Below, in pieces: positions 1,573 through 23,142 of a DNA stretch of 24,664 nucleotides. Position 1 is the stretch's first letter. Every line of letters starts with the position of its first letter. The notes beneath the pieces were generated by a model, which was given only the letters and a program-made list of their open reading frames with translations, searched no databases and was not told where the DNA came from. Made by a program: the position numbers and the translations under genes. The stretch is taken from positions 1 to 24,664 of IMG/VR virus record IMGVR_UViG_3300020581_000030; one strand, 5' to 3'. This DNA comes from a virus.

Positions 1573-1793
1573 TTTGTATGTCTGTCAATAGCGGCTAAAT
1601 GCGTGTTCATTTCGTCTAAACGCTCAATAATGACCGCTAACTGTTTATCGTGATCATAAACTTTAGGACGGATTTCTGCCATCTCTTTGACCGTATGATC
1701 CCATTCAGCAGGTTTTGCATAGGCTTGCCAAATGACCCCAACCAAAGTCAGGATTGTCAAGGCTAGACCAAAATCTACTTTACGCCACCTCAT
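1569..1793 (-). CDS. Small membrane-anchored coiled-coil protein
   Basis: A 74-residue protein with an N-terminal membrane span (FGLALTILTLVGVIWQAYA, residues about 8-26) preceded by RWRK, then a charged helix (HTVKEMAEIRPKVYDHD, QLAVIIERLDEMNTHLAAI). The layout resembles small membrane proteins in phage lysis cassettes, including i-spanin-like proteins, but it is short for a spanin. The hydrophobic part is less likely to be cleaved than those of the fibre proteins. It overlaps both neighbours by ATGA. Confidence 0.65.
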   Translation of the reverse strand: MRWRKVDFGLALTILTLVGVIWQAYAKPAEWDHTVKEMAEIRPKVYDHDKQLAVIIERLDEMNTHLAAIDRHTK

Positions 1794-2560
1794 TCAAAAC
1801 GCTCCATTTTGGACATTTTAGAAGCACCTCCACCGGAAGGATTCGCATTTAAAGAAAGCCATGCCAAAGACCAACTTGTAGAAGTTCCCGTATTGCTCCA
1901 TGACATTGTTTGGCTTGCGGGAGCACCTTGAGGGCCTTTGTAGGAAGCCCCTATGATAGTCCCTTGATTTCCATTCGAGAAGTTGGATAGTTGTACTTGG
2001 CTTCCTCCTGGCGTCGCCGCTGATGTTGTGGTCGTTTCTTGAGCCGAATCTACTAGCATTTCCCCTGAATTGGTGACATTGATATTAGCACTAATACTAG
2101 TAGCACTTGCTGCCGCCGCACCCGTGCTCACATCCACAGGAGTTGTTTGGTTCACGCCTGCGAATGTCTCTGCTGTACAAGTTAATTGTTGGCCTGCCGT
2201 CCCTCCGCAACTACCTGCTGTTGGAGTCACGGAAACTGTCTTAGCTCCTGATGCCGCGCCAATCGCAACAGCCCAGACTTCCGAGCTATTAAATGTGGCG
2301 GCATTTGAGGTACGTTGCTTAAAGACGAAGGCTGTTCCCCCAATGGAAGCCGCAGACACATTTGAGCCCGTTCCGCCTACTCCACTACAAGAGAGCACCG
2401 CTGCTTTATTACCAGCCGCTGTTCCATTTCCAACGGTCATGCTCCATGTACAAGGACTTCCCACTGAAGCACTCGAACTGTAGGTGCTCGTGTCAAAGAC
2501 AATCGTATCTGCCCACCCCAAGACCGGAACACACAGAAGCAAAAGTAAAAAATATCTCAT
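1790..2560 (-). CDS. Exported beta-rich protein, fibre module
   Basis: A 256-residue protein with a signal peptide (MRY, core FLLLLLCVPVLG, then WAD). The mature part is Ser/Thr/Ala/Gly-rich and beta, like single-domain phage or surface beta-sandwiches (TWSMTVGNGTAAGNKAAVLS, VSVTPTAGSCGG, SWSLAWLSLN near the end). Four cysteines (37, 58, 118, 128) follow the signal. The end SGGGASKMSKMERFE is charged. ATGA overlaps occur at both ends. It is the last exported protein before the lysis-like module. The function is unknown. A surface-binding role is plausible. Confidence 0.75.
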   Translation of the reverse strand: MRYFLLLLLCVPVLGWADTIVFDTSTYSSSASVGSPCTWSMTVGNGTAAGNKAAVLSCSGVGGTGSNVSAASIGGTAFVFKQRTSNAATFNSSEVWAVAIGAASGAKTVSVTPTAGSCGGTAGQQLTCTAETFAGVNQTTPVDVSTGAAAASATSISANINVTNSGEMLVDSAQETTTTSAATPGGSQVQLSNFSNGNQGTIIGASYKGPQGAPASQTMSWSNTGTSTSWSLAWLSLNANPSGGGASKMSKMERFE

Positions 2561-2991
2561 GGGCCTACTTGAATGAGCGGTAAGAGAATTGCCGAATTGG
2601 CCGAAAGTTCGCTTGTAACCTTCGCTAATTGAGCGGTAAACGTAAGATCGGTGGCCAAAAGTATGTTGTGGCTAATAGCGACTTGCATTTGTTTAAGAAG
2701 TGTGTAGTCCGTTAGGAACTGTGTTTTAATCGCCGCATTGGGATCAATGACGGGCATTGGAATAGGCGTCGGAATGACTGGCTGTCCAGGGGCCGGAACT
2801 GCACTGACTGCCGCTTGTTGGGCCGTTAAATTAGCGATGACTGTGGCGGCTGTGTCTGGAATGAAGGTAGCCGGTGCCCCAGGAGGGATCGGATACCAGT
2901 TGGTATAGATCTTTCCAGAGACACTATCCGTAAACTGTAAATTTACGGCATTATTTGCGTCGGTCGCTAAAACAAGTACACTCCAACTCAT
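2557..2991 (-). CDS. Hypothetical virion-associated protein without signal peptide
   Basis: A 144-residue cysteine-free protein. Residues 1-50 are beta-like (WSVLVLATDANNAVNLQFTD). A Pro-rich segment follows (PGQPVIPTPIPMPVIDP, about residues 76-92), then a helical C-terminus (FLTDYTLLKQMQVAISHN, QLAKVTSELSANSAILL). The start at ATG 2991 is decided by an AGGAGGT site 4-5 bases upstream. Longer readings enter the upstream gene. It overlaps the next gene by ATGA. The family is not recognised. Helical end plus beta head might join a fibre partner. Confidence 0.7.
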   Translation of the reverse strand: MSWSVLVLATDANNAVNLQFTDSVSGKIYTNWYPIPPGAPATFIPDTAATVIANLTAQQAAVSAVPAPGQPVIPTPIPMPVIDPNAAIKTQFLTDYTLLKQMQVAISHNILLATDLTFTAQLAKVTSELSANSAILLPLIQVGP

Positions 2992-2999
2992 AAGACCTC

Positions 3000-4697
3000 C
3001 TAGGGCGTGATACTGGGTACTTCCATCCAACTAAACGTGGCTGTCATTGCACCGCCGGTCACAGTAGCACCTTGGATATTCAGGGCAACACATTGGCTTA
3101 TCCCGCGCAAAACAATTGGCTTCATGCGCCAATCGGCGGGAGAGATATAGATATCATTCGGGGTGGCCGTACCAGGAGCCATGCAACCCAGTTTGTAATT
3201 GTCCAAATATCCCACTAAAGCACCAGGAACAAGCGTGGCACTATTAATCGAAAAGATAGCCGTAGATGATGGAACCTCATAGTTGGAATCTTGAGCTACG
3301 GTCGTCATCGTAGACCAAACACCTGCGTACGTAGCACTTCTCTTGACTATGGCTAAGGAAATGATCCCTGCGGTTGTCTGAGTACAGGAAGCTCTGATGC
3401 TGTAAATAAGTACGATATCGGTTGCATTTCCACAAATAGCCGCCACATCTGAAGTATCGGAAGCAATCGAAAATGTGGTTGTTGACCCTGAATAAGAATC
3501 TGGGATGATCGCCGGAAGGACTGCCACATGTTCCAAATGATCAGTCCCAATCTCAATAGCCGCATTGTTTCCTGCTGTTCCGACCGTCCCGTTCCCGTAC
3601 CCATCGTTATAGACCCCAGGAAGCGTAGGCAAACGATTCGTACCAACAGCTACACCATTGTCAGACAATGTTCCTACTACACCAAGAGTCGAAACAAGAC
3701 TTACAAATCCAATTGTAGAATTTTGTACCTGGATCGGATTGACTGTCACAATGCCAACCGTTGTTTGGGCCAATGTCCAGTTTCCTATAGCTTGGATAAC
3801 TCCAATCGTTGAATTTCCTATGGCAAAGACGGAACCTCCATTAACAATTCCTACCGTAGAAGCGAGGATTGTATCGTTAAAAGTTGATCCACCATTGACA
3901 ATTCCAATAGTTGACGTGATAATGGCATGAGGTGCCACACCCAACGTAACGCCCGTTCCAGTAACCACATTAATCGTGCTAGCCAAAACCCCCCAAGAAC
4001 TTGTTATTACACCGAATGTAGATGGGCCCAGAGAGAAACTACCAACTATCCCAATAGTCGAATTTCCCACTTGAAAGACAGATCCACCATTCACGACTCC
4101 AAACGTAGACTGACCTAAGGAAAACGTACCTACAACCCCAATGGTTGAGTTTGAAACTGTCGTAGGAATAGTGCCAGAAATACCTACTGTTGAAGCCAAA
4201 ACAGTCGTATTCAAGATCACGCCTGTCCCCGTGACAACATTGATAGTGCTGGCAAGCACACCGAAAGAACTCTGAACAACTCCGAAAGTAGACTGAAAGA
4301 CCCCTACTGTCCCAGAAATAGGAACTGTCCCAAGAACATTAACTGCCGTTGTACTATTCCCGATAACCCAGGGAGTGGTTCCTTGGTTTGCCGTCACAGT
4401 TCCTGTTACACCGACCGTTGATGCAATTACTGTGGTTGTCGTAGGATTTATTACATAAATGGAATTAGTTGCTGAACTAGTTGCTAAATGAACAGCAAGT
4501 CCTGTTACCGGATCAACAGGCGCTACCCCTCCCGTCACATTCGGATCAGCAATCGTAATCGCTTGTCTAAAGTTTGTGTTTGCAGGAATAAAACCGTCAA
4601 CAGCTAAAAAAGTCCCAGAAGAAACAGTTAAAGATGAATTGGCTCCCCATCCTAACGATGGAAAAGCAAGAATGGCAAAAGCCAGAAGCTTTTTCAT
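3000..4697 (-). CDS. Exported repeat fibre protein (STxGVV repeats)
   Basis: A 565-residue protein. The signal peptide is residues 1-19 (MKK, core LLAFAILAFPSL, then GWGA). Residues about 91-345 are built of short repeats such as NSTIGVVGTFSLG, STFGVVNGGSVF and ASTVGIVNGGSVF, probably a beta-solenoid or trimeric shaft. The C-terminal 200 residues are globular, with four cysteines (422, 438, 505, 536) and the end KPIVLRGISQCVALNIQGA, TATFSWMEV, a pattern I associate with phage tail-tip proteins. ATG 4697 is preferred (ATGA overlap, GGGGGT 9 bases upstream) over 4703. The role is inferred as an exported adhesin-like appendage. Confidence 0.78.
   Translation of the reverse strand: MKKLLAFAILAFPSLGWGANSSLTVSSGTFLAVDGFIPANTNFRQAITIADPNVTGGVAPVDPVTGLAVHLATSSATNSIYVINPTTTTVIASTVGVTGTVTANQGTTPWVIGNSTTAVNVLGTVPISGTVGVFQSTFGVVQSSFGVLASTINVVTGTGVILNTTVLASTVGISGTIPTTVSNSTIGVVGTFSLGQSTFGVVNGGSVFQVGNSTIGIVGSFSLGPSTFGVITSSWGVLASTINVVTGTGVTLGVAPHAIITSTIGIVNGGSTFNDTILASTVGIVNGGSVFAIGNSTIGVIQAIGNWTLAQTTVGIVTVNPIQVQNSTIGFVSLVSTLGVVGTLSDNGVAVGTNRLPTLPGVYNDGYGNGTVGTAGNNAAIEIGTDHLEHVAVLPAIIPDSYSGSTTTFSIASDTSDVAAICGNATDIVLIYSIRASCTQTTAGIISLAIVKRSATYAGVWSTMTTVAQDSNYEVPSSTAIFSINSATLVPGALVGYLDNYKLGCMAPGTATPNDIYISPADWRMKPIVLRGISQCVALNIQGATVTGGAMTATFSWMEVPSITP
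3663..4427 (-). repeat. STxGVV coding repeats with a 90-residue higher-order duplication
   Basis: GVLASTINVVTGTGV occurs at residues 146-160 and 236-250 (4218-4262 and 3948-3992). Of the first 14 codons, 11 differ between copies, all silently. Shorter units (STIGVV, STFGVV, STVGIV) fill the rest of the region. Confidence 0.85.
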
Positions 4698-5005
4698 GGA
4701 CATGTTACCCCCAGTAAAATCCCTAATGGAATACCCGTGGTGCAAGGTCTAAAAAAAGGAGGAGAAGATACGATAGGGCATGTTTCCGTAATGGCTACCA
4801 AAATACCGTAAGGCATACCATTCAAACAAGAAATAAATGGACTACCACCTCCGCCACTTCCATTCGGAGGAGTTTGGATAATATAAGACTTCTCAGAATT
4901 CAAGCCAAAGCCAATCGTAGAAGCTATCTCCAATTCAGATGGAATATAGCCATTTAAAGTCTGCACCATCAAAACGAAAAGGACGATCTTATTGAGCCAA
5001 CGCAT
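4694..5005 (-). CDS. Small exported Cys-loop protein, fibre module
   Basis: A 103-residue protein with a signal-like N-terminus (MRWLNK, core IVLFVLMVQTL, then NG). After a PPNGSGGGGSP linker come two similar loops: C60 to C76 enclosing NGMPYGILVAIT, and C88 to C102 enclosing TGIPLGILLGV. Both end in CP. The four cysteines suggest two disulfides. GGAG lies 9 bases before the ATG. The last codons overlap the next start (ATGA) and supply its GGGGG site. The family is unknown. It may be a small exported appendage or tip protein. Confidence 0.7.
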   Translation of the reverse strand: MRWLNKIVLFVLMVQTLNGYIPSELEIASTIGFGLNSEKSYIIQTPPNGSGGGGSPFISCLNGMPYGILVAITETCPIVSSPPFFRPCTTGIPLGILLGVTCP

Positions 5006-5324
5006 AGTAAATTTCTCCGCTTACCTGTACGCCTACACTTGAATTAATAATAAATGCAGTATTAGGAGCTGTTATAAACCAAGGTTCGCCTGTTGCATCA
5101 AATGTAATCCCTTCGTTCGCCGCAAAAGGAACGGCTGCTGGACTTGGTAAATTATCTTTGAATGTTAAATTTGTCGCTCCTGCTACCAAAAACCAAATCC
5201 GATGCACTACAATTCGATTGCCATTGGTATCCGCTGCAATGACTGTTTGATCACCACTTGTGGAAAAATTTATTGCTATACGATTCAATATAGGAAGTCG
5301 AGGATAGAGACTAACAGCTCCCAT
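4989..5324 (-). CDS. Small beta-sandwich virion protein without signal peptide
   Basis: A 111-residue protein. The core SGDQTVIAADTNGNRIVVHR, then IWFLVAGATNLTFKDN, PFAANEGITFDA and VGVQVSGEIYYA, matches a common phage structural pattern ('s.dn.vVaA..gkrI.V......ag..n.tf.......g...l..n.G......p......t..g..l......v.v.G...Y'). I know this pattern from small tail or decoration proteins of unknown exact role. It has no cysteines and no signal, unlike its neighbours. ATG 5324 (TAATG junction, AGGA 9 bases upstream) is preferred over ATG 5354. Confidence 0.75.
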   Translation of the reverse strand: MGAVSLYPRLPILNRIAINFSTSGDQTVIAADTNGNRIVVHRIWFLVAGATNLTFKDNLPSPAAVPFAANEGITFDATGEPWFITAPNTAFIINSSVGVQVSGEIYYALAQ

Positions 5325-5776
5325 TAAAGAAGTCCTAATAGTTGCCGCAACCATAACACCCGAACGATCATTTTAACACCCTGATTGATTTGCGTTTGCG
5401 TCAAACTATTAAAGTTAGGATAAGCAGCAATGATAGCCGCTGTCGTTGTCGATAATTCCGTTTCATAAGAATTGATCTGGCCCGTAAGCGTTGTCAAAGA
5501 GGCAGGATTATTGGAGTAGAAATTAACTAGGCTAGTCGTCGATATCAGCGTGGTATCGAATACGACATCATTAAAACAGAGAGTCAATTCCGTTCCATTC
5601 AGGTTAGAAGTGGGAACTTGATTCAAGCCATTTGCCTGGGCCACGCCATAAGCCAAAGGTCTGGCTTTGGTAATTTGATCGGGAGTAAACTGCGCGACCT
5701 GAAGTACAGTACAAGAGTCATCTGACCAAAGAGCAGAAGCTAACAGCAAAAGAGGGATTACCTTACTGAAGCGCAT
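5324..5776 (-). CDS. Exported hypothetical protein, fibre module
   Basis: A 150-residue protein with a signal peptide (MRFSK, core VIPLLLLASALW, cut near SDD). The mature part has two cysteines (22 and 67), a Thr/Asn/Ser-rich middle (SLVNFYSNNPASLTTLTG) and a helical end (GVKMIVRVLWLRQLLGLL) that could be amphipathic. AGGAG lies 9 bases before the ATG at 5776, and the gene overlaps the fibre stop by 14 bases. The family is not recognised. It could be a fibre partner or chaperone outside the cytoplasm, by position only. Confidence 0.7.
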   Translation of the reverse strand: MRFSKVIPLLLLASALWSDDSCTVLQVAQFTPDQITKARPLAYGVAQANGLNQVPTSNLNGTELTLCFNDVVFDTTLISTTSLVNFYSNNPASLTTLTGQINSYETELSTTTAAIIAAYPNFNSLTQTQINQGVKMIVRVLWLRQLLGLL

Positions 5777-8447
5777 AATGATTGGCTCCTAACAAGTCGT
5801 CGATAAAATACTGAATGACCGTTATGGTATAGTTTCGGTTGGCTCCATCTGTTGCTAATAAGATTCCGCCTCCAATCCCTTGTCCACTTAACCAACTTTC
5901 GAAGACAACAGAACGTCCTCCTTCGTTGTGAGGAAGAAGCGCAATATATCCAGCCCCAGGCTTATCAGCCACAATCATATCACTAGCATTGGAAGAACCT
6001 GCGAATCCAAAATTGACGCTTACTTGCATGTTATCAGGAAGTCCAGAATTCAATGCAGAACTAATCGCCCATGTCCACGTCAGAGTAGCTGCTGTTCCTG
6101 TCGTTGAGGAAATAACAACTCCTGGTAGCCGACCGCCGTTATTTCCTCCAATAATCGCATTGAAAGAGACTAAAGACCCCCTCTGAACAAATGACGTTAT
6201 TTGGGTATCGACATCATTGTTGTTTCCATATGGAAGTAAACCAAGATGCGCCCATTTATTAAACCCATAGGTCGTATTGAGATAGGACACCCCTGCGGAA
6301 GTCGCGGGAGAAACAGTATCAATAATGCAACTGAAATCGGTGCTAGTTTGTGAAGATTCCACAGCATAATATTGGTACCAGGTATTGGTTGTCAAGACAT
6401 ACCCTGGCGTTAAGCCAGACTGAGGAACAAGACCCCAATTTCCTGTTTGATTAATATTACAAACACGAGTACTTCCGAAAATGGCCGGAACGGATGTCTC
6501 AGCTCGCGTGGTTCCATCCCGAAAGGTTATACTAGACGTATTAGTCGTCATGGTGTTTGTATCAAGAAGCACACTAATAGTGCTATAGAAAATGAGGTTT
6601 GGGAGGGCAACAGGAGCCGAAGTTCCTCCGCTTCCTGTACCACAAGCACTTCCCGTCCCTGTTAAAAGACCTCCAGTTCCAGTCTGAACGCATTGACCAG
6701 AAGTAAGCCCAGAAACTGCCAAAGCCGTGAAGGTCGAAGGTTTAGCACTTGTCCAACTGGCTTGACCTGTCCAAGTAGGAGAGGAGTCAATTAAGTCATA
6801 CCATTGAGGAGAACTTCCTGATCCTTGAGAACTAAGGAGATTTCCGCTGACACCTACCGAATTATTGGTTTCGAAATCGCCTCCGCCTAAAATAAATCCA
6901 TGAGTATGCCCTGCGGCATAAAGACCTACAGCGGTTCCATTGGTGTCGTTGTCAATAAAATAGCCACCATAGGTTGATCCTCCTACAACTTCATTGGCCG
7001 TCCCATAAACACCATATCCCGTTGTTCCCGCAGACTCAGATAAACCATGACCATAGATTGCATAGTTACTGGCTGATGATCCTGACGCCTCTCCTGCCGT
7101 CCCGTAGACTCCGTAATTATTGTTATTTGACCTAGCGGCGTAGAAGAACCCTCCGTAAGTGGAACCCGTTCCTCCTGTGGTCAACTCATTGACGTCCGAA
7201 TAAACTCCATAGGCATTCGCTCCCGAAGAACCCGTATCTCCCATAAAAATCATATGGCCTATAGATGCATTAGCCCCAGGATCGCCCAAAGGGCAAGTTG
7301 TTCCTTGAAGTGCTGTTACGCCAAGCTCCGTACATTGAGCAATGGCAGGAGAGCCAAATGTATTGACGTAAATATTACTCGTCACAAAGACTAAATTGGA
7401 ATTCAGGGAATTGGCAGTTCCAGAAGAAGTATAAAAAGTCGCACTTTGTAATAAAGTAGTATTTTGAATGTAATTGGTATCACCCACCGGCAACGGAAGC
7501 CCAATATTTTTAGATCCCCATGACGGAACAGTTCCTGAACCACCTGAAGTCAAAACTTGCCCGTTTGTTCCAGCTCCTCCCAGAATCAAAATACCACTTG
7601 AAATATTCAGATTCCCAGAAAATGTCGTACTACCACTTACATTATTAAAACCACTCCATACGTTACTTTGTGTCAAAATGGGGCCATTCAACGTCACGGA
7701 AGACGAGCTTAACGTCCACTGGGCAGTTGTTCCTCCTCCTACAGACGTAATTATAAACGGAGGAGAAAGGGCATTAATTGCTATGGTTGGACTCGTAATT
7801 TGAACGGAATTCTGATTGACCGCTAGAAGAGAAGCTCCGCTAGCTCCTCCACTTCCGGTGTTATACCAACCCAAATGGGCCGCACCATCAGTCCCCATCA
7901 CTTGCCCATTAGCACCATCTCCTTTAGGCAAAGACCAAAGAGTACTAGCCGAAATAGGAGAAGTGGCCGTAAATCCAGAATAAGCTATGGTCGTATTTTG
8001 CGAGGAACCAATTACGGCAAAAGAACCATAAATATGACCCGTTCCACCAGAAATATTAAGATCGGCAGAAGGATAAAAACTGTTCCCGTTAATAAATAGC
8101 CCATCCTGAGAAGAAATTGTCATTTCATTTCTATGACCCAAAATTCCTAAATTTTGGATAGAAGAACTATGTGCTATATCACCAGAAACCTCATAGATAG
8201 TCCCGCCACCCATCATTGTTAAAGAATTTCCTCCCGAAATTGTTTGAGGTTGTGTAAAAGTATTTGAAAGAGTCGGAACACACATGGACGAGTCAATAAT
8301 ACTGAAATTGTTGCGAATCCCTACATCCCAGTTCTGCTCCCCAAAAGGCTGAAGAACCAGGCCGACACGGGGAGTAGTAGGGTCAGCGGCATGGCAAACC
8401 CCCGCTAGAAGGCCCATTAAAGCCCCCAAAATGGCGATTCTACGCAT
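5763..8447 (-). CDS. Large exported fibre-like protein
   Basis: An 894-residue protein. Residues 1-20 form a signal peptide (RR, core IAILGALMGLLAGV, then CHA). Directly after it, the segment RVGLVLQPFGEQNWDVGIRN with NFSIID resembles the short conserved start of many tail fibres. A long Ser/Thr/Gly/Asn-rich beta shaft follows. At about residues 410-505 are YGVYG-type repeats. The last 230 residues (from NLIFYSTISVLLDTN) look globular and end NYTITVIQYFIDD. Seven cysteines lie after the signal. It overlaps the next gene by 14 bases. A receptor-binding or adhesive appendage role is inferred. The combination of fibre start and signal peptide is odd. Confidence 0.8.
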   Translation of the reverse strand: MRRIAILGALMGLLAGVCHAADPTTPRVGLVLQPFGEQNWDVGIRNNFSIIDSSMCVPTLSNTFTQPQTISGGNSLTMMGGGTIYEVSGDIAHSSSIQNLGILGHRNEMTISSQDGLFINGNSFYPSADLNISGGTGHIYGSFAVIGSSQNTTIAYSGFTATSPISASTLWSLPKGDGANGQVMGTDGAAHLGWYNTGSGGASGASLLAVNQNSVQITSPTIAINALSPPFIITSVGGGTTAQWTLSSSSVTLNGPILTQSNVWSGFNNVSGSTTFSGNLNISSGILILGGAGTNGQVLTSGGSGTVPSWGSKNIGLPLPVGDTNYIQNTTLLQSATFYTSSGTANSLNSNLVFVTSNIYVNTFGSPAIAQCTELGVTALQGTTCPLGDPGANASIGHMIFMGDTGSSGANAYGVYSDVNELTTGGTGSTYGGFFYAARSNNNNYGVYGTAGEASGSSASNYAIYGHGLSESAGTTGYGVYGTANEVVGGSTYGGYFIDNDTNGTAVGLYAAGHTHGFILGGGDFETNNSVGVSGNLLSSQGSGSSPQWYDLIDSSPTWTGQASWTSAKPSTFTALAVSGLTSGQCVQTGTGGLLTGTGSACGTGSGGTSAPVALPNLIFYSTISVLLDTNTMTTNTSSITFRDGTTRAETSVPAIFGSTRVCNINQTGNWGLVPQSGLTPGYVLTTNTWYQYYAVESSQTSTDFSCIIDTVSPATSAGVSYLNTTYGFNKWAHLGLLPYGNNNDVDTQITSFVQRGSLVSFNAIIGGNNGGRLPGVVISSTTGTAATLTWTWAISSALNSGLPDNMQVSVNFGFAGSSNASDMIVADKPGAGYIALLPHNEGGRSVVFESWLSGQGIGGGILLATDGANRNYTITVIQYFIDDLLGANHYALQ
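6925..7222 (-). repeat. YGVYG-type coding repeats in the fibre
   Basis: Repeated short motifs (AYGVYSD, STYGGFFYAA, NYGVYGTAGEAS, YAIYGHGLSES, GYGVYGTANEVV, STYGGYFID, AVGLYAAG) recur every 15-25 residues. This pattern is known from shafts and tips of phage fibres and of collar-type adhesins. DNA copies are well diverged. Confidence 0.7.
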
Positions 8448-8453
8448 TATTTA

Positions 8454-8467
8454 GCCCCTTTTGGGGC
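8454..8467 (-). promoter_or_regulatory. Hairpin covering the ribosome site of the 894-residue fibre gene
   Basis: GCCCC and GGGGC form a 5-bp stem with a 4-base loop, extendable by one G-U pair. On the minus-strand RNA the 3' arm (AAGGGGC) is also the likely Shine-Dalgarno sequence, ending 6-7 bases before the ATG at 8447. The hairpin could therefore limit translation of the large exported fibre or slow transcription. Confidence 0.45.
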
Positions 8468-8518
8468 CTAGGATGATTTGGGCCTTGTTTAGCAAGCTCT
8501 TTGGGGATAGAATGAAGT

Positions 8519-8596
8519 ATGAAAAACTTCATTGAAGGTTTTATAGAAGGCTTTATGGCAGTTGGAGCTTTCATGCTCATTCGTTTCATCTTTTAA
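8519..8596 (+). CDS. Possible plus-strand 25-residue membrane peptide
   Basis: An ATG at 8519 opens a 25-residue frame with a doubled FIEGF and a hydrophobic C-terminal half (MAVGAFMLIRFIF), the profile of a single-span peptide. It fills most of the 145-base gap between two minus-strand genes and its stop overlaps theirs. Support is weak: GGGGAT lies 10 bases upstream, and a TTGTTT-17-TAGAAT promoter-like pair (8485-8513) sits just before the ATG. A 49-residue frame on the minus strand (8440-8589) competes for the same DNA. It would be the only plus-strand gene. Confidence 0.35.
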   Translation: MKNFIEGFIEGFMAVGAFMLIRFIF

Positions 8597-9798
8597 GGAT
8601 TTTGATTATTTTTTCCAAGAAGCTTTTTAACTGCTTCCACGGCTAAAGTTCCACCAGTTCCCCATCCTAAACCTTTTTCAAAATAAGGTGCTATTTTCCC
8701 AAAAGTAGAAATTGGTTCTTTTGCAGTCGCGAAAGTCGCAGCTGATTTATTGATATCTGGCATTAAACGCATTAACTTTGAATACTGAGCATTTGATTGC
8801 AAAAAGTTATCTCTTAAAGAAGGATCATTTGCTTGTTGAGCAATAGTCGATACAACATTATCTCGCGCATTAGCTCCTGCTGCATAAATCTTTCGATAAA
8901 TTGGTTGTAAAGCTTCAGGCCCATCATAAGTTTTAGGACCTACTTCATGAAGAAAATCATCTAAATTATCAAGTGTCAGTGAGCCACCTTGTTGTTTGGC
9001 AATATTGGCTAGACCTTCATAATATTTACCAAATGTTCCAATAGTTCGACCATCCGGTACAATCGAATTTATTTCTTTAGACCATCCTTGATAAAGAGGC
9101 CCTAAAGCTGTCTCTGGACTAACAGCTAATGCTCCTGAGCCTGCTGCTTGAGCTATGGCTGATTTTGCTCGTGCTACTGAATTTCCAGAAGTTTTAATAG
9201 CATTAGAAAAATTATCGAATGTTTCCGGCGGTGTTTTTCCGATAAGATTTTGTGCATTTAATTGGGTTTCAAGGTCTTTACCAAAAGTAGCAGGATTAAC
9301 TCCTGCTGGTGTCATACTTTGAAGTGTCGGACGTTTTATTCCAGCACTATTAAGTGTAGGTTCTTCTTCAAATAAAGAACCGATCCCACTTGCAGCACCA
9401 CCGATTGCTTTTCCTGCCCCATAAATGGAAGTAGCTGTAGTAACAGGATTTCGATACATTGCCCCAATAGGATCAGAAGCAAAATCCTCAATACCTTGTT
9501 TTATTCCTTGTGTTCCTTGTTTTGTGAATTTCCCCAATTCAGTATTTTGTATTGGTGTTCCTTGTAGAACTTGCGCAGGAGAAACAGCAACGGCTTCTGG
9601 AAGATCAACTGTTCCTTGTTTAATTAAATTAGCCATCCCAACTGCAGATCTTCCAATATCAGGCAAAACATTTTTAGCTAAACCTGAAAGACTGTAATTT
9701 TGAGATGGTAAGGGCGTAGATGATCCATCATCAAGATACTGAATCTTTGAAGTGGTAGGAGAAACAGAAGATTGATTGTCTAAATATTGAATTGGCAT
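8593..9798 (-). CDS. Candidate internal (ejection) virion protein, AT-rich
   Basis: A 401-residue cysteine-free protein. It begins with a doubled motif: IQYLDNQSS (residues 3-11) and IQYLDDGSS (residues 19-27). There follow a moderately hydrophobic segment (AGKAIGGAASGIGSL) and a long helical part (ARAKSAIAQAAGSGALAVS, LDDFLHEVGPKTY, IYRKIYAAGANARDNVVS), then WGTGGTLAVEAVKKLLGK near the end. It is the last gene of the candidate internal-protein block. The DNA is AT-richer than the head genes (20 G/C in 60 bases at 9241). Its stop TAA overlaps, in converging orientation, the stop of a possible plus-strand peptide. Confidence 0.7.
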   Translation of the reverse strand: MPIQYLDNQSSVSPTTSKIQYLDDGSSTPLPSQNYSLSGLAKNVLPDIGRSAVGMANLIKQGTVDLPEAVAVSPAQVLQGTPIQNTELGKFTKQGTQGIKQGIEDFASDPIGAMYRNPVTTATSIYGAGKAIGGAASGIGSLFEEEPTLNSAGIKRPTLQSMTPAGVNPATFGKDLETQLNAQNLIGKTPPETFDNFSNAIKTSGNSVARAKSAIAQAAGSGALAVSPETALGPLYQGWSKEINSIVPDGRTIGTFGKYYEGLANIAKQQGGSLTLDNLDDFLHEVGPKTYDGPEALQPIYRKIYAAGANARDNVVSTIAQQANDPSLRDNFLQSNAQYSKLMRLMPDINKSAATFATAKEPISTFGKIAPYFEKGLGWGTGGTLAVEAVKKLLGKNNQNP

Positions 9799-11042
9799 TA
9801 ACGAATTACCGCTTTGCGTCCAGCCACGTGAATAATGGTTCCTTGCGGAAGATTAGGATCAACATCTGCTTCAGATTCAAAATATGTATTTGGCGGAATT
9901 GCAGGCTGTTGAATATCCCCACCAATTTGATTGGCTGCTGCGTTAAATCCTTGATAATTACGATTCACCGTACTTGTCAAAAATTGGTGCATCGCAGCTA
10001 CTTTATTCGATGCAACTCGTGGATCGTCTTCTACTTTTGGCGTCATACTTTCGACTTGAGCTAAAAGAGCTTGATTTTGACGACCCATAGGATCAAGAGC
10101 CGCCGCAAAATTGCCAATAAAAGCATGACGTGCCTGATTGTAAGTTGAAAGTTCAGGAGATGTAGCTCCTGCGGCTGTTCCCCCATATTTAGTTATTTGA
10201 CCAACATAAGCTCCTTTCTGAGTAGGTGGAATTTTGTCATAGAGAGAATTAAGTTGATCTAACGCATCAAAACCAGACATTGTGCGATTAATCGATTTTG
10301 TAAACTCATCTTGTTGTGCTGCAAGAGCCCTATTTTTTTCGTTCGTTTGGGCAGTAGAAAATTGATTAGCTTCCTGTACTTTTCCCCTCTGAAATCTACT
10401 CTCTTCTCCTGCTTGATTTTGTTGGAATTGCCGCCCTTCCTGTCCTGCTTTCAATGCTGGAAGAACGACATTCTGGAAACCCTTCATAGACATCCCGCCA
10501 GGGGGTAAAGTCAGAGCAGGGCCACTACTAGGCGCAATAGTATCTGGTGTGCCAGGCGGAAGATTCGCTCCGCCGCCTGCACCGGCTCCTTCTGTACTTC
10601 CTAACGCCGTAGCCCCAGGAGTTTGGGGAGGATTGGCAGAACCGGCAATGGCCGGAGACGGAGAAGGAGGAGGCGGTGTACCGCCGCCACTTCCATCACC
10701 TCCAGCTCCACCACTACTTACATTGGCACCAAAAGCTTTCGCGGCCCCTCCCAAAACATTGGCTGGAACATAATTCTCCATCGCCGGAGCAATAGTCAAA
10801 AGATCTTTAACGGTGTGTTGCGGCCCTAGACCAAATGGGATTTGACTAGGATCGGAATACATCGATCCTAATGGAGTCGAAAGAAGTTTGTATTGTTCAA
10901 GTTGTTGGCCGAGTTGCTTGCCTTGCATATAACCGCCAATGATCCCTTGGCCTGCTTCTCCTGCCGATTGAACTGCCCGAAGTGATTTGGACGGTTGAGA
11001 AAGAGCATTGGATAATGCTAAAAACAGAGCATCGCTAGCCAC
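9798..11042 (-). CDS. Candidate internal (ejection) virion protein
   Basis: A 414-residue protein with no cysteines. Residues 1-50 are helical (SKSLRAVQSAGEAGQGIIGG). A Gly/Pro/Ser/Ala linker spans about 108-185, including a PPPPSPSP run. Residues about 195-395 are helical (EESRFQRGKVQEANQF, NRALAAQQDEFTKSINRT). The end PQGTIIHVAGRKAVIR is beta. It starts at GTG 11042 with a strong GGAGGTGG site 6 bases upstream. It joins the next gene by TAATG. Size, helicity and position fit the internal protein block that short-tailed phages eject with DNA. I do not recognise a specific family or a lysozyme domain. Confidence 0.7.
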   Translation of the reverse strand: MASDALFLALSNALSQPSKSLRAVQSAGEAGQGIIGGYMQGKQLGQQLEQYKLLSTPLGSMYSDPSQIPFGLGPQHTVKDLLTIAPAMENYVPANVLGGAAKAFGANVSSGGAGGDGSGGGTPPPPSPSPAIAGSANPPQTPGATALGSTEGAGAGGGANLPPGTPDTIAPSSGPALTLPPGGMSMKGFQNVVLPALKAGQEGRQFQQNQAGEESRFQRGKVQEANQFSTAQTNEKNRALAAQQDEFTKSINRTMSGFDALDQLNSLYDKIPPTQKGAYVGQITKYGGTAAGATSPELSTYNQARHAFIGNFAAALDPMGRQNQALLAQVESMTPKVEDDPRVASNKVAAMHQFLTSTVNRNYQGFNAAANQIGGDIQQPAIPPNTYFESEADVDPNLPQGTIIHVAGRKAVIR

Positions 11043-11572
11043 TAGTAACCACCTCCGTAATATTGGGAAGCACCACCGCCAGGATAAAGAGACAAACCAG
11101 GAGGCATAGACCCACCACCTCCTCCATATCCTAACCCTCCTCCTCCACCACCACCACCACCACTAAACCCACCCATTCCAGCGTAAGTCGCTAAAGGCTT
11201 TCCAACAGCCCCTACTCCCATCATGATCTGTTGTAAAAGGTCAGGACGATTCAACGACGCCACTTGTCTCGCTAAAGCTTCATTTTGTGTGAAATCGCGC
11301 TGTTGTAGCGCATTGTTGTAAGACGTATTGCCTAGCGAATTACCGAGTCCCGTCGCAAGATTCCCAATATCAAGCCCTTGGGTCGTATTCAATCGCTGTT
11401 TCGTATAGTCCGTCGGCCCTCCACTAAAACCTTGTGCCGAAGCGTCGCCTGTCGCTTTAGATAATGCACCACCGTAGTTCTGACCAATCTGATTATAGGT
11501 ACCTGTTCCAATACCCCCAAAAACAGAGGAAAGATCAGGTGGTAATGCTACTCCGCTAGCTGTAAGTGGCAT
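11042..11572 (-). CDS. Candidate internal virion protein, paralogue 2, with polyglycine tail
   Basis: A 176-residue cysteine-free protein. Residues about 55-125 are helical (LQQRDFTQNEALARQVASL, then LLQQIMMGVGAVG) and align by pattern with the preceding protein. The last 45 residues are glycine-rich, with runs of nine and five Gly and a Tyr/Gly end (YYGGGY). AGGAG overlapping the upstream stop supports the start at 11572. Its own stop overlaps the GTG start of the next gene, and its Gly codons supply that gene's GGAGGTGG site. Confidence 0.65.
   Translation of the reverse strand: MPLTASGVALPPDLSSVFGGIGTGTYNQIGQNYGGALSKATGDASAQGFSGGPTDYTKQRLNTTQGLDIGNLATGLGNSLGNTSYNNALQQRDFTQNEALARQVASLNRPDLLQQIMMGVGAVGKPLATYAGMGGFSGGGGGGGGGLGYGGGGGSMPPGLSLYPGGGASQYYGGGY
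11111..11163 (-). repeat. GGN-rich low-complexity tract (polyglycine)
   Basis: Plus-strand CCA/CCT runs encode glycine runs on the minus strand in the 176-residue protein. It is a simple coding repeat prone to length change, not a CRISPR or intergenic satellite. Confidence 0.7.
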
Positions 11573-11580
11573 AAATTCTC

Positions 11581-11985
11581 CTAAAGTAACGCCGCTCCCA
11601 TTGCGGCCGTCGGCCCAAGGGCCCCTATTCCTTGAAAAACTTCATCTAGAGTCGATGGTTTATTGAGACTCCCAATCAAACTTGCTAACTGAGACGACCG
11701 GCTAAAATTCTGGCTATTCAGCCAATCTTCTGCCGGAATTCCTGCTGTTTCATTTGCTGCGTTGGTTTGAATCCCCGAAAGTCCCTGTTGATATTGCGTA
11801 TCCAAATCCGTCAAAGGATAGCTACTTACTCCCGACATCAAACGACCCGACGACGCCTGATCGGCCACCGCTTGCTTTCGCTGTTGTTGGTAAGAGTCAG
11901 TCAAATTTGCCGTCTGTGATCCTGTACTTTGATTGATCACATCTTGCAGATTTTGCGGATTGTAACCATTAGGTAAAAGTGGCAT
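11581..11985 (-). CDS. Candidate internal virion protein, paralogue 1
   Basis: A 134-residue cysteine-free protein rich in Gln, Ser, Ala and Gly, predicted helical. It has a YQQQRKQAVADQASSGRLMS helix followed by NFSRSSQLASLIGSLNKP, and ends LDEVFQGIGALGP plus an Ala-rich tail. The SLNKPSTLDEVFQGIGALG part matches SLNRPDLLQQIMMGVGAVG in the next gene, so the two look like diverged tandem duplicates. AAGGAG supports the start. The position after the nozzle-like gene and the composition resemble internal or ejected proteins of short-tailed phages. The function is inferred. Confidence 0.65.
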   Translation of the reverse strand: MPLLPNGYNPQNLQDVINQSTGSQTANLTDSYQQQRKQAVADQASSGRLMSGVSSYPLTDLDTQYQQGLSGIQTNAANETAGIPAEDWLNSQNFSRSSQLASLIGSLNKPSTLDEVFQGIGALGPTAAMGAALL

Positions 11986-11995
11986 TCGCTACTCC

Positions 11996-12235
11996 TTAAG
12001 TGAACTGCACATAACGAAGCGTGTTATCCGCTACTGTATAAAGCCGTAGAGCCGTCTTGTCAAAAACAAACTCGCCTTCTGTCACATCTTTATTTAAAAC
12101 CGGAGGACTATTCTTCGAAAATCGCATTTTCTTCGGTGCAAAGAACCGGAACAAGTCACTCATCGAAGTGAAGGTATTGCCCTCATTCTGAAAGGTTCCT
12201 GATTTGTTGGTAGTGGGTTGCGGCAAAACACTCAT
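11996..12235 (-). CDS. Small hypothetical protein after the nozzle gene
   Basis: A 79-residue basic protein with a disordered N-terminus, a short amphipathic segment (SMSDLFRFFAPKKMRF), and a beta-like end (EGEFVFDKTALRLYTVAD). The latter resembles short phage peptides that carry a 'dg.....yty.g..lr.v.f' ending. No function is known. It overlaps the nozzle-like gene by ATGA, and its stop is part of the ribosome site (TAAGGAG) of the next gene. It is probably a minor tail protein. Confidence 0.65.
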   Translation of the reverse strand: MSVLPQPTTNKSGTFQNEGNTFTSMSDLFRFFAPKKMRFSKNSPPVLNKDVTEGEFVFDKTALRLYTVADNTLRYVQFT

Positions 12236-14958: not shown

Positions 14959-15173
14959 TGCACATCATCCACAACCCAAACCGGTTGCGCCGTTCCCGTT
15001 TGGGTTTGACTTCCTCCAAAACCACCTTGCCCAAATCCCCCTTGACCAAAACCAAAACCACTAGAACCAGTGAGATTAGGAATTCTTTGCCAGGAAACCT
15101 GTAAGCCTATTTGAGATGTATACAGAGGCCGACCCAAAATGCCAATTGTCCAAGTAGGAGTTGCAATACTCAT
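14955..15173 (-). CDS. Small Gly/Gln-rich hypothetical protein
   Basis: A 72-residue protein with a beta-like N-terminus (TPTWTIGILGRPLYTSQIGLQ) cut here for length, then a Gly/Phe/Gln repeat (residues about 38-54, GFGFGQGGFGQGGFGGSQ) and a short hydrophobic end (PVWVVDDVQ). It overlaps both neighbours by ATGA. No family is recognised. The position between adaptor and nozzle-like protein suggests a minor tail component. Confidence 0.65.
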   Translation of the reverse strand: MSIATPTWTIGILGRPLYTSQIGLQVSWQRIPNLTGSSGFGFGQGGFGQGGFGGSQTQTGTAQPVWVVDDVQ

Positions 15174-15841: not shown

Positions 15842-16254
15842 CAGGCATCCGGCAGAACGTTATAAGCCCTACGAATAGCCTGAATAAAATCCTCTACCAG
15901 TTGCCGTTTACCGTCTGTGCGTGATTTCTCCTTCACAAACTCCGCTTTATCAAAAGCCAATTTCGACTTTTCTTTGTCATGAGTTTCCAAAATCGTCTTG
16001 AATTCATTGCGTTGGGCTTCTAAAGTCGTATTGCCTTTGGCAATCGTATCCAGTCCTTCTCGGATCTGTTTTTCATGCGTCGAGATATAATTCTGATACT
16101 CGGTACGCTTTTGGTCAATCTCTCCTTGCAAGATTTCGCTTTGTCTTTTCAAGTTCTCATGTTCGTTCCGTGCATGTTCTACGCGGTTTTCCCATTGTGT
16201 TAATTCCGTCTGTAAGGTCTTGGCTGATTTTAATGCTTCTGACATTTGATTCAT
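15841..16254 (-). CDS. Coiled-coil hypothetical protein
   Basis: A 137-residue protein that is almost one continuous coiled coil (LTQWENRVEHARNEHENLK, IDQKRTEYQNYISTHEKQI, KSKLAFDKAEFVKEKSR), ending in a short helix. It has no cysteines or membrane segment. TAGGAG 6 bases before the ATG supports the start, and the stop overlaps the adaptor start (TGATG). It lies between the head genes and the head-tail adaptor, so a structural or assembly-chaperone role is plausible. The function cannot be named. Confidence 0.75.
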   Translation of the reverse strand: MNQMSEALKSAKTLQTELTQWENRVEHARNEHENLKRQSEILQGEIDQKRTEYQNYISTHEKQIREGLDTIAKGNTTLEAQRNEFKTILETHDKEKSKLAFDKAEFVKEKSRTDGKRQLVEDFIQAIRRAYNVLPDA

Positions 16255-16263
16255 TTTCGTCTC

Positions 16264-16533
16264 CTATTTCGGGAAGAAATACCGTCTGTTATGCCCGATT
16301 TCCTGCGAATAGTAAAACTGCCTTTTTTCTTGCGGGTGCCACCGCCGGTCTTTGATATCTCGCACATGGGCCGTAGAACCCCTAGGGTCAGAGGGGTTCT
16401 CGTGCCCAAACTCAAAAAGCCTGCACCCAATAAACTCAAGACCAGGTGCGCATAAGCGGCACACCCAACGATCCCCCACCAGTCGAAAGGTGGCGGCAGG
16501 CTTCTGACACTCTGGACAAATCCCATCATTCAT
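16264..16533 (-). CDS. Small zinc-ribbon hypothetical protein
   Basis: An 89-residue basic protein with two CxxC pairs (ICPECQ and VCRLCAP, residues about 6-9 and 25-28), a probable zinc site. Its C-terminal half is rich in Arg, His and aromatics (HVRDIKDRRWHP, then YYSQEIGHNRRYFFPK). No named family is recognised. The start lies 19 bases beyond the terminator-like hairpin and lacks a good ribosome site. An overlapping frame (16251-16529) was rejected because only this frame keeps the cysteine pairs and spacing. Nucleic-acid or protein binding is possible. Confidence 0.65.
   Translation of the reverse strand: MNDGICPECQKPAATFRLVGDRWVCRLCAPGLEFIGCRLFEFGHENPSDPRGSTAHVRDIKDRRWHPQEKRQFYYSQEIGHNRRYFFPK
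16375..16400. repeat. 9-bp perfect inverted repeat
   Basis: AGAACCCCT (16375-16383) and AGGGGTTCT (16392-16400) form a perfect 9-bp stem around an 8-base loop inside the zinc-ribbon gene. There is no T run on either side, so it is not a classical terminator. It could be an RNA stem or a chance result of the codons used. Confidence 0.6.
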
Positions 16534-16551
16534 AGTTCAAATCAAAACCCA

Positions 16552-16574
16552 GGGAGGGGAATTTCACCCCTCCC
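16552..16574 (-). terminator. Terminator-like hairpin after the head module
   Basis: An 8-bp perfect GC-rich stem (GGGAGGGG with CCCCTCCC) encloses a 7-base loop. CCC (16548-16550) and GGG (16577-16579) could extend it. On the minus strand it is followed by TGGGTTTTGATTT, T-rich but without a clean T run, so termination may be partial. It lies 15 bases after the secreted protein gene and 19 bases before the next start. It is the only such structure seen in the late operon. Confidence 0.6.
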
Positions 16575-16588
16575 ATGGGCATTTGAAT

Positions 16589-17056
16589 TTAATTTCCCGA
16601 CAATCCTCTACCCGTCTCGAATTCCACCGTAGCACTATCATTCGCGGATGTACAAGCTGTGTACAAACCGTTATAGAAAATGATCGGAGGATCAAACGTA
16701 TAGATGGTACTTGCCGAAGTTGAACCAAAGAACAAGCGTGGCCCTAATTGGGATGCAAAGTTCGTATTATTTGCACCTCCAGGTGCCGTAAGAGCCAACG
16801 CCACATTCGTGTCATACAACACACAATAATCACCCGACGCTCCAGTTCCTAAATACACGTCATACACCGCACCAGGCATCGTCGAGGTGCTAAGTGAAAC
16901 CGTGTTGAAGGAAGTAGCCGTGATCGTTGTGATTACCGTTGTATAACCGATGTTCTTTGTTTCTTTCGGTCCGCGAGCATATGTTGCCGCATCCGAACGA
17001 GATGCCAAACAGAAGAGCCCGAAAACGACAAGGATGAGACTAAGTGTTTTTTTCAT
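16589..17056 (-). CDS. Secreted small beta-rich protein next to the coat gene
   Basis: A 155-residue protein. Residues 1-23 form a clean signal peptide (KK, core LSLILVVFGLFCLA, then SRSDA before ATYARG). The mature part is Thr/Ser/Gly-rich, predicted beta, with two cysteines (78, 135). It shares the 'NGL...D-x-TV-x-F' ending with the 18863-19240 protein. The start at 17056 is clear: GGGGG 5 bases upstream, 11 bases after the coat stop. Longer readings of this frame run into the coat gene and are rejected. Decoration or head-fibre function is inferred from location. A terminator-like hairpin follows. Confidence 0.85.
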   Translation of the reverse strand: MKKTLSLILVVFGLFCLASRSDAATYARGPKETKNIGYTTVITTITATSFNTVSLSTSTMPGAVYDVYLGTGASGDYCVLYDTNVALALTAPGGANNTNFASQLGPRLFFGSTSASTIYTFDPPIIFYNGLYTACTSANDSATVEFETGRGLSGN

Positions 17057-17066
17057 AGTTTCCCCC

Positions 17067-17933
17067 TTACGAATTCGTTCCCACAATGTAAGCATGATCA
17101 TTACGAAGTTGCGCCACCCCGTACAGAGCACTTCCTGCATAGGGCTGGCTGAATTTCGTGCGAGCAAACTTTTCCATTGTGAAGTTTTTCTGCATGACAA
17201 TCCCGATGGCTTCTTTGTGGAACAAGGCATTAAACCGCACCGACGCCGTGTTGTTCACGAGCGGCGTGACGGTCACATCTGTTCCATAAAGCCCCGTGAT
17301 GCGCCCTCCTTCCACCTGCAAGCCTTTCGTGAAGCCTGTGGTGTTGGCCAGCGAGAACTTATCAACAGCCAAAATATCCGCTTCAGCGACTGGAGCAATC
17401 GCCCAGTGCCGATCTTCCTTTGGAATTTTGTTGTCGTCAAGTGTCCGCTGTGCCAGGAGAATCAATCCATCCGAGAACGGCACGTTCTGCGGCGTATTCG
17501 AAAATAGCCACGTCGCGCTCTGGAATAGGTTGAGCACATCAACGTCCTGTTGCTGAGAAATGGCCTTGCCGAACGCATCAGCAAATTCCGCTTCCCAGTC
17601 CAAGACCGACTGAATACCGGCGATATCCACCAAATCGACATTGACAGCTTTCCAGCTGTTAATAACGATGGTTTTATCGGTCGGCGTTACAACTTGGTTC
17701 GTGAAACTCCCATCTGTCGTCGAAATGTTACCGACCGTCAAGACGGGGAAAATCTGGAAGTGGACAGTGTCGCCCATCTTCGTAATACTCCCTTTAACGT
17801 TCGGATCGCCTTCGACGCCATTGATGCAGAGCTTCCAAACCTTCGATTCCGCATACCTTGCCTTTAACGCTTTAACACGCCATAGTTTTGGTACGGAACC
17901 CGATACGTTTGATAAGCCTGTTTCGTTAGCCAT
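17067..17933 (-). CDS. Major capsid protein
   Basis: A 288-residue coat protein candidate immediately after the scaffold, with AGGAAG upstream. Seen: a hydrophilic N-arm, a beta-rich central part (GDTVHFQIFPVLTVGN, then TDKTIVINSWKAVNVDLVDI), a long helix (LDWEAEFADAFGKAISQQQD), and a C-terminal core (HWAIAPVAEADILAVDKF, then KEAIGIVMQKNFTMEKF). This order fits HK97-fold coats of podovirus-like phages: E-loop, spine helix, P- and A-domains. It has one cysteine and no signal peptide. The codons are GC-richer than in the tail genes (one 60-base sample at 17281 has 35 G/C). Confidence 0.9.
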   Translation of the reverse strand: MANETGLSNVSGSVPKLWRVKALKARYAESKVWKLCINGVEGDPNVKGSITKMGDTVHFQIFPVLTVGNISTTDGSFTNQVVTPTDKTIVINSWKAVNVDLVDIAGIQSVLDWEAEFADAFGKAISQQQDVDVLNLFQSATWLFSNTPQNVPFSDGLILLAQRTLDDNKIPKEDRHWAIAPVAEADILAVDKFSLANTTGFTKGLQVEGGRITGLYGTDVTVTPLVNNTASVRFNALFHKEAIGIVMQKNFTMEKFARTKFSQPYAGSALYGVAQLRNDHAYIVGTNS

Positions 17934-17952
17934 TTGGCTTCCTAATTTTTAT

Positions 17953-18819
17953 TTACCTCACACGTCCTTCTTTGGCCGCCGACATCAGCTCATCCAAAAG
18001 TTTCTGATCGGCCCTATGGCCTTGTTTGTCCAAGGCATCCACTGTGGCGTCAAATTCCGCTTTTGACCATACCTTCCCAGAAAGTCCAACACCAGGAGGC
18101 TGACCAATCACGGAAGAAGCTCGCGCTCTTGCCTGAGAACGGTTCCCAACTCCACGGTCTTGATTCAGTTTCAACCAAGCCCATTCAGCTACCCATTCAG
18201 GATCAAGCGTCTGCCTTCTTTGCACAGGAATACTTTCAATAATGTCGATCAAGTCTTCATCATCTTCAGGAGCGTAGTTCGGCTGCGAACGTATGAATTC
18301 GACGGCTGAAACCTGTCTTTGAGCAAGTTCCTGTTGCTGCGCTTCCATCTCTCGCGACATCTGAAAACGATCTAAAAGGCGTTCTTCCATGCCTCCTAAA
18401 CGTTCTTCCAGAAGTCGCTCTTGCGCCGCTAATGGATCTTGCCAAAAGTCGGCAGGGTTCCGCTCAGTCCCTTTGCGTCCAGGCTGTTGCAGTTGACGAA
18501 GCTCCTCAAGCTGTTGGCGAACACCCGCGAGTTCGGATTGATAACCCGCTTCGCGCTGTCGTGCTTCACGCCTCCATGCTCTTAGATCACGTATTTCATC
18601 AACTTTTGACCATCCACGCCTTTGACCGCTTTGCGACTGGCCGTCATCGGTAGAACCTTGCGGTTCTCCGGCATCAGACTTGGGCTCAAGATCAGCCCCC
18701 AGTTGAGTTCCGCTACCCGCAGCGCCCGTCTGTGATGGCGCTGTTTCAGTTCCGGCGGTTCCCGACGGCATGTCCGTAATTGTCACGTTTGCCGTCGGCG
18801 TTAATGTTGCATCAGCCAT
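17953..18819 (-). CDS. Capsid scaffolding protein
   Basis: A 288-residue acidic, Gln/Glu-rich, cysteine-free protein directly upstream of the coat gene. Residues 1-65 are disordered (Ala/Thr/Gly/Ser). Residues about 70-185 form long helices (WRREARQREAGYQSELAG, RLLEERLGGMEERLLDRFQM). The C-terminus (VWSKAEFDATVDALDKQG, ending AAKEGRVR) is the short helical coat-binding end typical of scaffolds. Scaffolds guide prohead assembly and leave before packaging. The start is supported by GAGGTG 6 bases upstream. Composition, architecture and position agree, though the sequence family is only weakly recognisable. Confidence 0.85.
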   Translation of the reverse strand: MADATLTPTANVTITDMPSGTAGTETAPSQTGAAGSGTQLGADLEPKSDAGEPQGSTDDGQSQSGQRRGWSKVDEIRDLRAWRREARQREAGYQSELAGVRQQLEELRQLQQPGRKGTERNPADFWQDPLAAQERLLEERLGGMEERLLDRFQMSREMEAQQQELAQRQVSAVEFIRSQPNYAPEDDEDLIDIIESIPVQRRQTLDPEWVAEWAWLKLNQDRGVGNRSQARARASSVIGQPPGVGLSGKVWSKAEFDATVDALDKQGHRADQKLLDELMSAAKEGRVR

Positions 18820-18862
18820 AAGTACACCTCATCCATTCTCTACGATATCGCCCGTAGGTGCG

Positions 18863-19240
18863 TTAGTACCTGTTGAACAAAATCGTGACGTCGGCTGTCC
18901 CTGTTTTGTTGTAAGTCAAACCGCTCGATACATCCACATCGTAGAAGTTACACGGCACAGCACTGGACGTGCTCACCGTCGCAATAATGTTTGACACCAC
19001 ACCCGATGAATTGTAAATAGCTAAATTCCCAGGAGAGGATGTATTAATGCAAATGCCATGAAACATACATCGTATCGAACTTCCTGATCCGCCACTGGGT
19101 TCACAGAGATTTAAAAATGAATCTGCCGTGGCTGTATTGGAAGAAATCCAAGCCGTTGTTTGAAACGCTGCGCCATGCCGACGCAATAGAAGCAAAAACA
19201 AAGAAGTCAACAACATCACAATTAAAAATCGCTTTTTCAT
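18863..19240 (-). CDS. Secreted small beta-rich protein, head module
   Basis: A 125-residue protein. Residues 1-25 look like a signal peptide: KKR, a hydrophobic core FLIVMLLTSLFLLLL, then RRHGAA. The mature part is Ser/Thr/Asn/Gly-rich and predicted beta, with four cysteines (46, 58, 64, 97) that could form two disulfides. The ending SGLTYNKTGTADVTILF resembles the YNGLYTACTSANDSATVEF ending of the secreted protein at 16589-17056. The pair brackets the scaffold and coat genes and may be paralogous. A decoration-protein role is inferred from position. The N-terminus could instead be a membrane anchor, given the RR after the core. Confidence 0.75.
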   Translation of the reverse strand: MKKRFLIVMLLTSLFLLLLRRHGAAFQTTAWISSNTATADSFLNLCEPSGGSGSSIRCMFHGICINTSSPGNLAIYNSSGVVSNIIATVSTSSAVPCNFYDVDVSSGLTYNKTGTADVTILFNRY

Positions 19241-23140: not shown

Positions 23141-23142
23141 GG

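Follow-up and report, generated by a model that had tools for sequence, protein, structure and literature searches.

The window analysed here is a 24,664-base virus record with its genes on the minus strand. Seven of them, SP1 to SP7, encode proteins with predicted signal peptides (Table 1). Read along that strand, the genes for terminase, portal, a 100-aa protein, SP1, scaffold, coat, SP2, a zinc-ribbon protein, and a coiled coil are followed by those for adaptor, tail nozzle, four cysteine-free candidate ejection proteins, the SP3 fibre, SP4, and a signal-less protein, and then by SP5, SP6, a second signal-less protein, SP7, and the lysis genes. In many cases a gene starts before its predecessor has ended, a layout like that of one operon. 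By its predicted terminase large subunit (PHROG match, 5.1e-40), portal, and major head protein, the phage is a tailed, podovirus-like member of the Caudoviricetes; the adaptor and an internal-virion-type match would fit a short tail. A filamentous-type phage was ruled out by the terminase and portal genes. The zinc-ribbon-like small protein (16264-16533, minus strand), located between SP2 and the coiled coil, has five cysteines and recurs among relatives with four to five. A DUF5675 protein in the lysis region (693-1070, minus strand; E 7e-19) is a candidate lysis gene.

Table 1. Features of the window discussed in the text.
Feature	Position	Strand	Description	Basis
Portal	19536..21383	-	head-tail connector	PHROG 332, E 4.8e-13
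SP1	18863..19240	-	125 aa, predicted exported; signal about residues 1-25 (19166-19240)	16 homologues, all with signal
Major capsid protein	17067..17933	-	no signal, 1 Cys; marks structural module	PHROG major head protein, E 2.8e-18
SP2	16589..17056	-	155 aa, predicted exported; signal about residues 1-23 (16988-17056)	14 homologues, all with signal
Candidate internal (ejection) proteins and small tail protein	8593..12235	-	all without Cys, without signal	
SP3	5763..8447	-	894-aa tail-fibre-like protein, predicted exported, 7 Cys; signal residues 1-20 (8388-8447)	N-terminal motif, conserved place
SP4	5324..5776	-	150 aa, predicted exported, 2 Cys; signal about residues 1-15 to 1-18	signal score 4.25
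Internal control	4989..5324	-	111 aa, no signal, no Cys, embedded among exported	signal score 1.79
SP5	4694..5005	-	103 aa, predicted exported, 4 Cys; signal about residues 1-19	signal score 5.12
SP6	3000..4697	-	565-aa repeat protein, predicted exported; signal residues 1-18	signal score 4.61
Internal control	2557..2991	-	144 aa, no signal, no Cys	signal score 1.92; homologue in G001
SP7	1790..2560	-	256 aa, predicted exported, 4 mature Cys; signal residues 1-17	signal score 5.01

The original prediction held that these seven open reading frames begin with Sec-type signal peptides. N-termini were scored for a basic N-region, a hydrophobic core, and cleavage residues, with a threshold of 4.0. 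Among known signal peptides of E. coli, 17 of 18 pass, and of 1266 internal Met starts 4 do; the score placed 12 of 18 known cleavage sites correctly, so predicted sites are approximate. All seven window proteins scored above the threshold (4.25 to 5.12), and the basic N-region, hydrophobic core, and small residues at -3 and -1 were present in 7/7 of them as well as in 30/30 homologues (16 of SP1 and 14 of SP2). All seven frames open with ATG. Chance hydrophobic N-termini or misplaced starts could be suspected, as the scoring is simple and a rule decided where genes start. That explanation is hardly credible given the contrast between 4/1266 internal starts and 30/30 homologues, and given that most of the seven starts either have a Shine-Dalgarno-like site ahead of them or overlap the stop of the gene before. 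The seven N-termini are thus predicted signals beyond chance, and Sec export of the proteins that bear them is well supported at the sequence level. Lipobox-like motifs were not common to the SP families, and a lipoprotein reading was rejected on that ground. No further membrane segment was found in the mature chains of the downstream proteins. An eighth signal-like N-terminus, on a 74-aa protein without cysteine (1569-1793), is more likely the signal anchor of a lysis cassette.

Viral contigs were searched with coat and portal to collect relatives. The result is a group of about 15 related uncultured podovirus contigs: seven are close relatives or fragments, with about 75 to 87% identity in coat or portal, and eight stand further off, their coats being 55 to 62% identical. 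A host search found no portal or coat relative in genome contigs and none in plasmids. Signal-scoring genes account for 60 of 468 predicted genes in the group versus 6 of 387 in seven control phages, T7, P22, phiM5, HTVC010P, Vibrio 1.206, MW202601, and MW202496 (Fisher p = 8e-11); none of the six control genes is a capsid, tail, or fibre gene. The nearest coat proteins in deposited phage records, at 22 to 26% identity, belong to the cyanopodoviruses Mastigocladus phage CHP58 and Arthronema virus TR020. TR020 shares the terminase, portal, and capsid order of the group; CHP58 has no signal-like gene, and TR020 has one tiny early gene and one ambiguous upstream start. The latter is a late case, in which starting upstream of the annotated position gives a putative endopeptidase (L059:27324-30512, minus strand) a signal-like N-terminus.

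SP1 and SP2 are conserved small proteins, and wherever a contig extends across the region their genes keep their position next to portal and coat. The SP1 family has 16 members, present on a contig as a single gene or as up to three in tandem, in each case between portal and scaffold; the 14 SP2 members lie directly after the coat gene in every case. Tandem diverged SP1 copies, two or three in number, are found at G010 17672-18373, G013 1679-2685, and G016 5595-6296 (oriented coordinates). Within both families, the signal sequences have diverged to about 31 to 34% identity on average, and the predicted signal is a feature kept although its letters change. Loss of the N-terminal segments from homologues had been named as grounds for abandoning the original prediction; the segments are retained in 30/30 SP1 and SP2 proteins and in 8/8 fibres. 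When the SP1 and SP2 profiles were compared, the match was weak (probability 6%), and common descent is accordingly not claimed. Neither SP1 nor SP2 found a match by tblastn against 50,697 phage records, and the SP1 and fibre alignments were too variable for a collection scan.

The mature SP1 chain is a jelly roll with four cysteines (46, 58, 64, and 97). Four cysteines are conserved across the family; the only two-cysteine member, from G012, lacks those of alignment columns 82 and 126 together, and the alignment points to probable pairs at columns 82-126 and 53-158. Window SP1 lacks the column 158 cysteine and has gained Cys58, so its total remains four. An AlphaFold2 model (pLDDT 88, pTM 0.80) shows an eight-strand jelly roll in which Cys37 and Cys70 (mature numbering) are in register on neighbouring strands D and G, and Cys19 sits at a hairpin base opposite Cys31, beside the C-terminal strand that carries the usual partner. 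Judged by strand order and register, this cysteine swap would fit the SP1 structure. In the SP1 model and the weaker SP2 model, strand order and register would be compatible with adjacency of the paired cysteines. The predicted pairs, in mature numbering, are 19-97 and 37-70 for the SP1 family, 19-31 and 37-70 for window SP1, and 53-110 for window SP2.

The SP1 fold resembles nucleoplasmin-type folds, a phage cement protein, and predicted small proteins of uncultured tailed phages (TM 0.71 to 0.79 for the last). The trimeric cement protein of KHP40 (7dou) is a similar jelly roll (Z 6.4, 3.3 A over 92 residues); compared with it and with uncharacterised Caudovirales proteins, SP1 adds a signal peptide and four conserved cysteines. 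This modelled likeness is one of fold only and does not place SP1 on the capsid. Subunits of Bacillus endospore appendages (ENAs; 7a02, 8pdz) are jelly rolls of similar size with disulfides (Z 7.0 to 7.5 to SP1). ENAs are spore fibres with no sequence relation to SP1 found, and the resemblance was set aside because its score is tied with unrelated jelly rolls. Z values near 7 are common for jelly rolls and show no function; the modelled similarity of SP1 is middling and proves no capsid or tail role.

The mature SP2 chain is beta-rich with one cysteine pair (78, 135). Across the family, cysteines are never single: five different position pairs are used, each by two members, and four members have none. 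When cysteines were placed at random, all-even counts arose in 0.02% of trials, or 0.7% when each position pair was counted once. The predicted SP2 disulfide is optional, as four homologues are cysteine-free. The SP2 model is weak (pLDDT 70) with an uncertain fold, and no PDB match to it fell below E 0.001. The coat gene is likewise followed by one for a small protein in phiM5 and HTVC010P, where this protein has neither signal nor cysteine; for phiM5, the annotation records its detection in particles.

According to the general view, tailed-phage particles are completed in the cytoplasm, an environment in which disulfides do not form. Mature cysteine counts of SP1 to SP7 are 4, 2, 7, 2, 4, 4, and 4, a recount that agrees with the original prediction. 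It was also correct that the signal-less proteins it listed lack cysteine and that there is a single cysteine in coat and in adaptor. To be added to that account are the portal and the 908-aa tail protein, with three cysteines apiece, and the zinc-ribbon-like protein with its five. Group-wide, cysteine-containing proteins with a signal split into 41 with even and 8 with odd counts, versus 41 even and 66 odd among the others (Fisher p = 7e-8, not corrected for kinship), and cysteine density is 14.3 per 1000 residues in signal-bearing proteins versus 5.5 in the others. Some large fibres have odd counts (7 in the window, 9 in G005). We read the paired, even counts as disulfides, and hence as folding outside the cytoplasm. 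The cysteines, conserved and gained and lost in pairs, behave across the alignments as disulfides would outside the cytoplasm, which gives the predicted oxidation strong support at the sequence level. A precedent for another origin of removable N-termini exists in P22, where the record states that the first 20 residues of gp7 are removed by a host oligopeptidase. Propeptides of this kind, cut in the cytoplasm, would leave unexplained both the paired cysteines and the recurrence of a basic, hydrophobic, and small-residue pattern across unrelated proteins, and we consider them very improbable here.

The mature N-terminus of SP3 is a fibre motif, TTPRVGL..WD..IRNNFSIIDSS. Fibre genes were found after the ejection genes in eight contigs (G000, G001, G003, G005, G009, G010, G012, and G015), and a signal is present in 8/8, with those of G003 and G009 requiring a start further inside the open reading frame than the gene caller's first choice. 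The mature fibres of the group begin TTxxGLxxPxxGxxxWGxxLxxxFxIIDSS and contain 4 to 12 cysteines. Over about 35 N-terminal residues only, the motif matches fibres of other phages at E 5e-4 to 5e-3. Four matched fibres (phiM5 gp19, Tunturi_4 gp112, MW202879, and MW202496) are signal-less and carry the motif right after Met. The G010 fibre, for example, reads ...GYA before the predicted cleavage and ADTYTTRMGLTKPEDG...WGTKI..DFDIIDSS after it, and the signal-less MW202496 fibre reads M-ADTYTTNLNLTKPEVG...WGTKLN.DLDTLD. Sinorhizobium phage phiM5 also shares the portal, scaffold, and coat order of the group. Its gp19, a host-binding tail fibre by annotation and noted there as "detected in phage particle proteome", shares with similar podovirus fibres the N-terminal motif L-T-K-P..G..WG..LN.D.D.ID; it has no signal and no cysteine, whereas the group fibres have a signal before the motif and cysteines behind it. 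By sequence, the exported fibres look like cytoplasmic fibres with a signal placed in front, and cleavage would restore the usual N-terminus. That the motif begins at the predicted cleavage site is the best evidence that the exported proteins are virion parts, and the term appendage in the original prediction gains support from this alignment with cytoplasmic tail fibres, one of them virion-annotated.

The same alignment bears on whether the N-termini might be uncleaved membrane anchors, or hydrophobic virion segments acting at infection, with the proteins remaining membrane-bound or entering virions with the segment attached. Signal anchors do resemble signal peptides, and both the lysis-cassette protein described above and the P22 spanin score positive. 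We nevertheless find uncleaved segments improbable: A-x-A type cleavage motifs lie at a regular place behind short hydrophobic cores, the fibre motif starts where cleavage is predicted, and it is difficult to account for the cysteine pairing unless the proteins reach an oxidising environment.

In distant relatives, the ejection genes are followed by one that resembles glycosyltransferases (PHROG 1574, E 5.9e-14; weak Glycos_transf_2), at G010 L036:7994-8692 (minus strand), at G015 L043:3953-4690 (minus strand), and in G011 and G016; in G010 and G015 it immediately precedes the exported fibre gene.

Downstream of the fibre, the remaining signal-bearing genes differ between contigs, and Pfam and PHROGs scans of SP1 to SP7 gave nothing usable. 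SP4 has no homologue in other group contigs. The cysteines of SP5 lie in two similar CxNGxP/CTTGxP-type repeats, and its homologue in G001 has a signal and four cysteines. SP6 has STVGI-type repeats with four cysteines in its C-terminal part; homologues in G001 and G012 carry signals and four or six mature cysteines. No sequence homologue of SP7 was found, and at its place G001 encodes a 256-aa protein beginning MKRFIALML. The two interleaved control proteins serve as a comparison within the same module: the one at 4989-5324 is conserved in G001, G003, and G005, and homologues of the two in G001 and G005 are likewise signal-less and cysteine-free. Outside the virion operon, early regions of G003 (9271-9570) and G005 (4410-4697) encode small proteins with signal peptides and two cysteines, beginning MKNKFWLLSVF and MKKTMILVLLL, respectively. 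The much more distant phage G007, an AT-rich contig with a coat 24% identical, encodes a 302-aa signal-peptide protein with two cysteines among tail and ejection genes (23061-23969); judging from this protein, exported late proteins may occur outside the group.

The signals, their conservation, the paired cysteines, and the fibre motif at the cleavage site are seen in the sequences; that the proteins are exported and cleaved in the cell, that disulfides form, and when and where docking occurs are what we infer. Head, portal, adaptor, tail nozzle, and ejection proteins would be made and assembled in the cytoplasm, while the SP3 fibre, SP1, SP2, and the variable surface-type SP4 to SP7 would leave by the Sec route and lose their signal peptides. 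In the oxidising space outside the inner membrane, the exported proteins would fold and their cysteines pair. Once the inner membrane fails at lysis, they would meet the cytoplasmic particles and dock by self-assembly, the fibre via its new N-terminus. The best explanation, to which we assign a probability of about 60%, is that exported, oxidised appendages join virions at or after lysis. Docking at this stage is favoured as the simplest way of uniting exported fibres with cytoplasmic heads, and is consistent with the fact that phage particles lacking fibres can acquire them in vitro.

Another destination would have the proteins exported and oxidised but never in virions, coating or leaving the infected cell to block superinfection, bind receptor debris to free progeny, or act as decoys. 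Variability of SP4 to SP7 and their lack of virion homologues fit such roles, as do Cor and lipoproteins such as T5 Llp, which other tailed phages encode and which act in this way after export. Against this stand the virion-type fibre motif exactly after the signal, the small SP1 and SP2 genes kept beside portal and coat, and the presence of seven such proteins inside the virion operon; to our knowledge, exclusion systems use far fewer. We regard a purely non-virion destination as rather unlikely. Of the three fates that the original prediction had allowed (virion, cell display, and release), the sequence comparison favours a probable virion destination for SP3, and less firmly for SP1 and SP2; its interpretation is supported as largely right.

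Virion proteins with cleaved Sec signals are familiar from filamentous phages, whose coat proteins pIII and pVIII are exported in this way, with disulfides in pIII. There, particles are assembled at the membrane and secreted; the present group has instead a tailed-phage portal, terminase, major head protein, and candidate ejection proteins. Searches of open-access papers turned up no tailed phage in which a set of virion proteins is exported. We consider it slightly better than an even chance that one lineage of tailed phages makes its particle in two places, the DNA-filled head and tail core in the cytoplasm and the disulfide-locked fibre and shell proteins beyond the inner membrane, and that the two sets come together only upon membrane breakage. 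This possible two-compartment assembly is the novel part; otherwise, these would be tailed-phage appendages. If the model is true, a lineage that consistently exports its fibre along with the conserved SP1 and SP2 would have a second compartment for assembly. This would account for the use of disulfides to stabilise a tailed phage and keep receptor-binding fibres apart from the cytoplasm.
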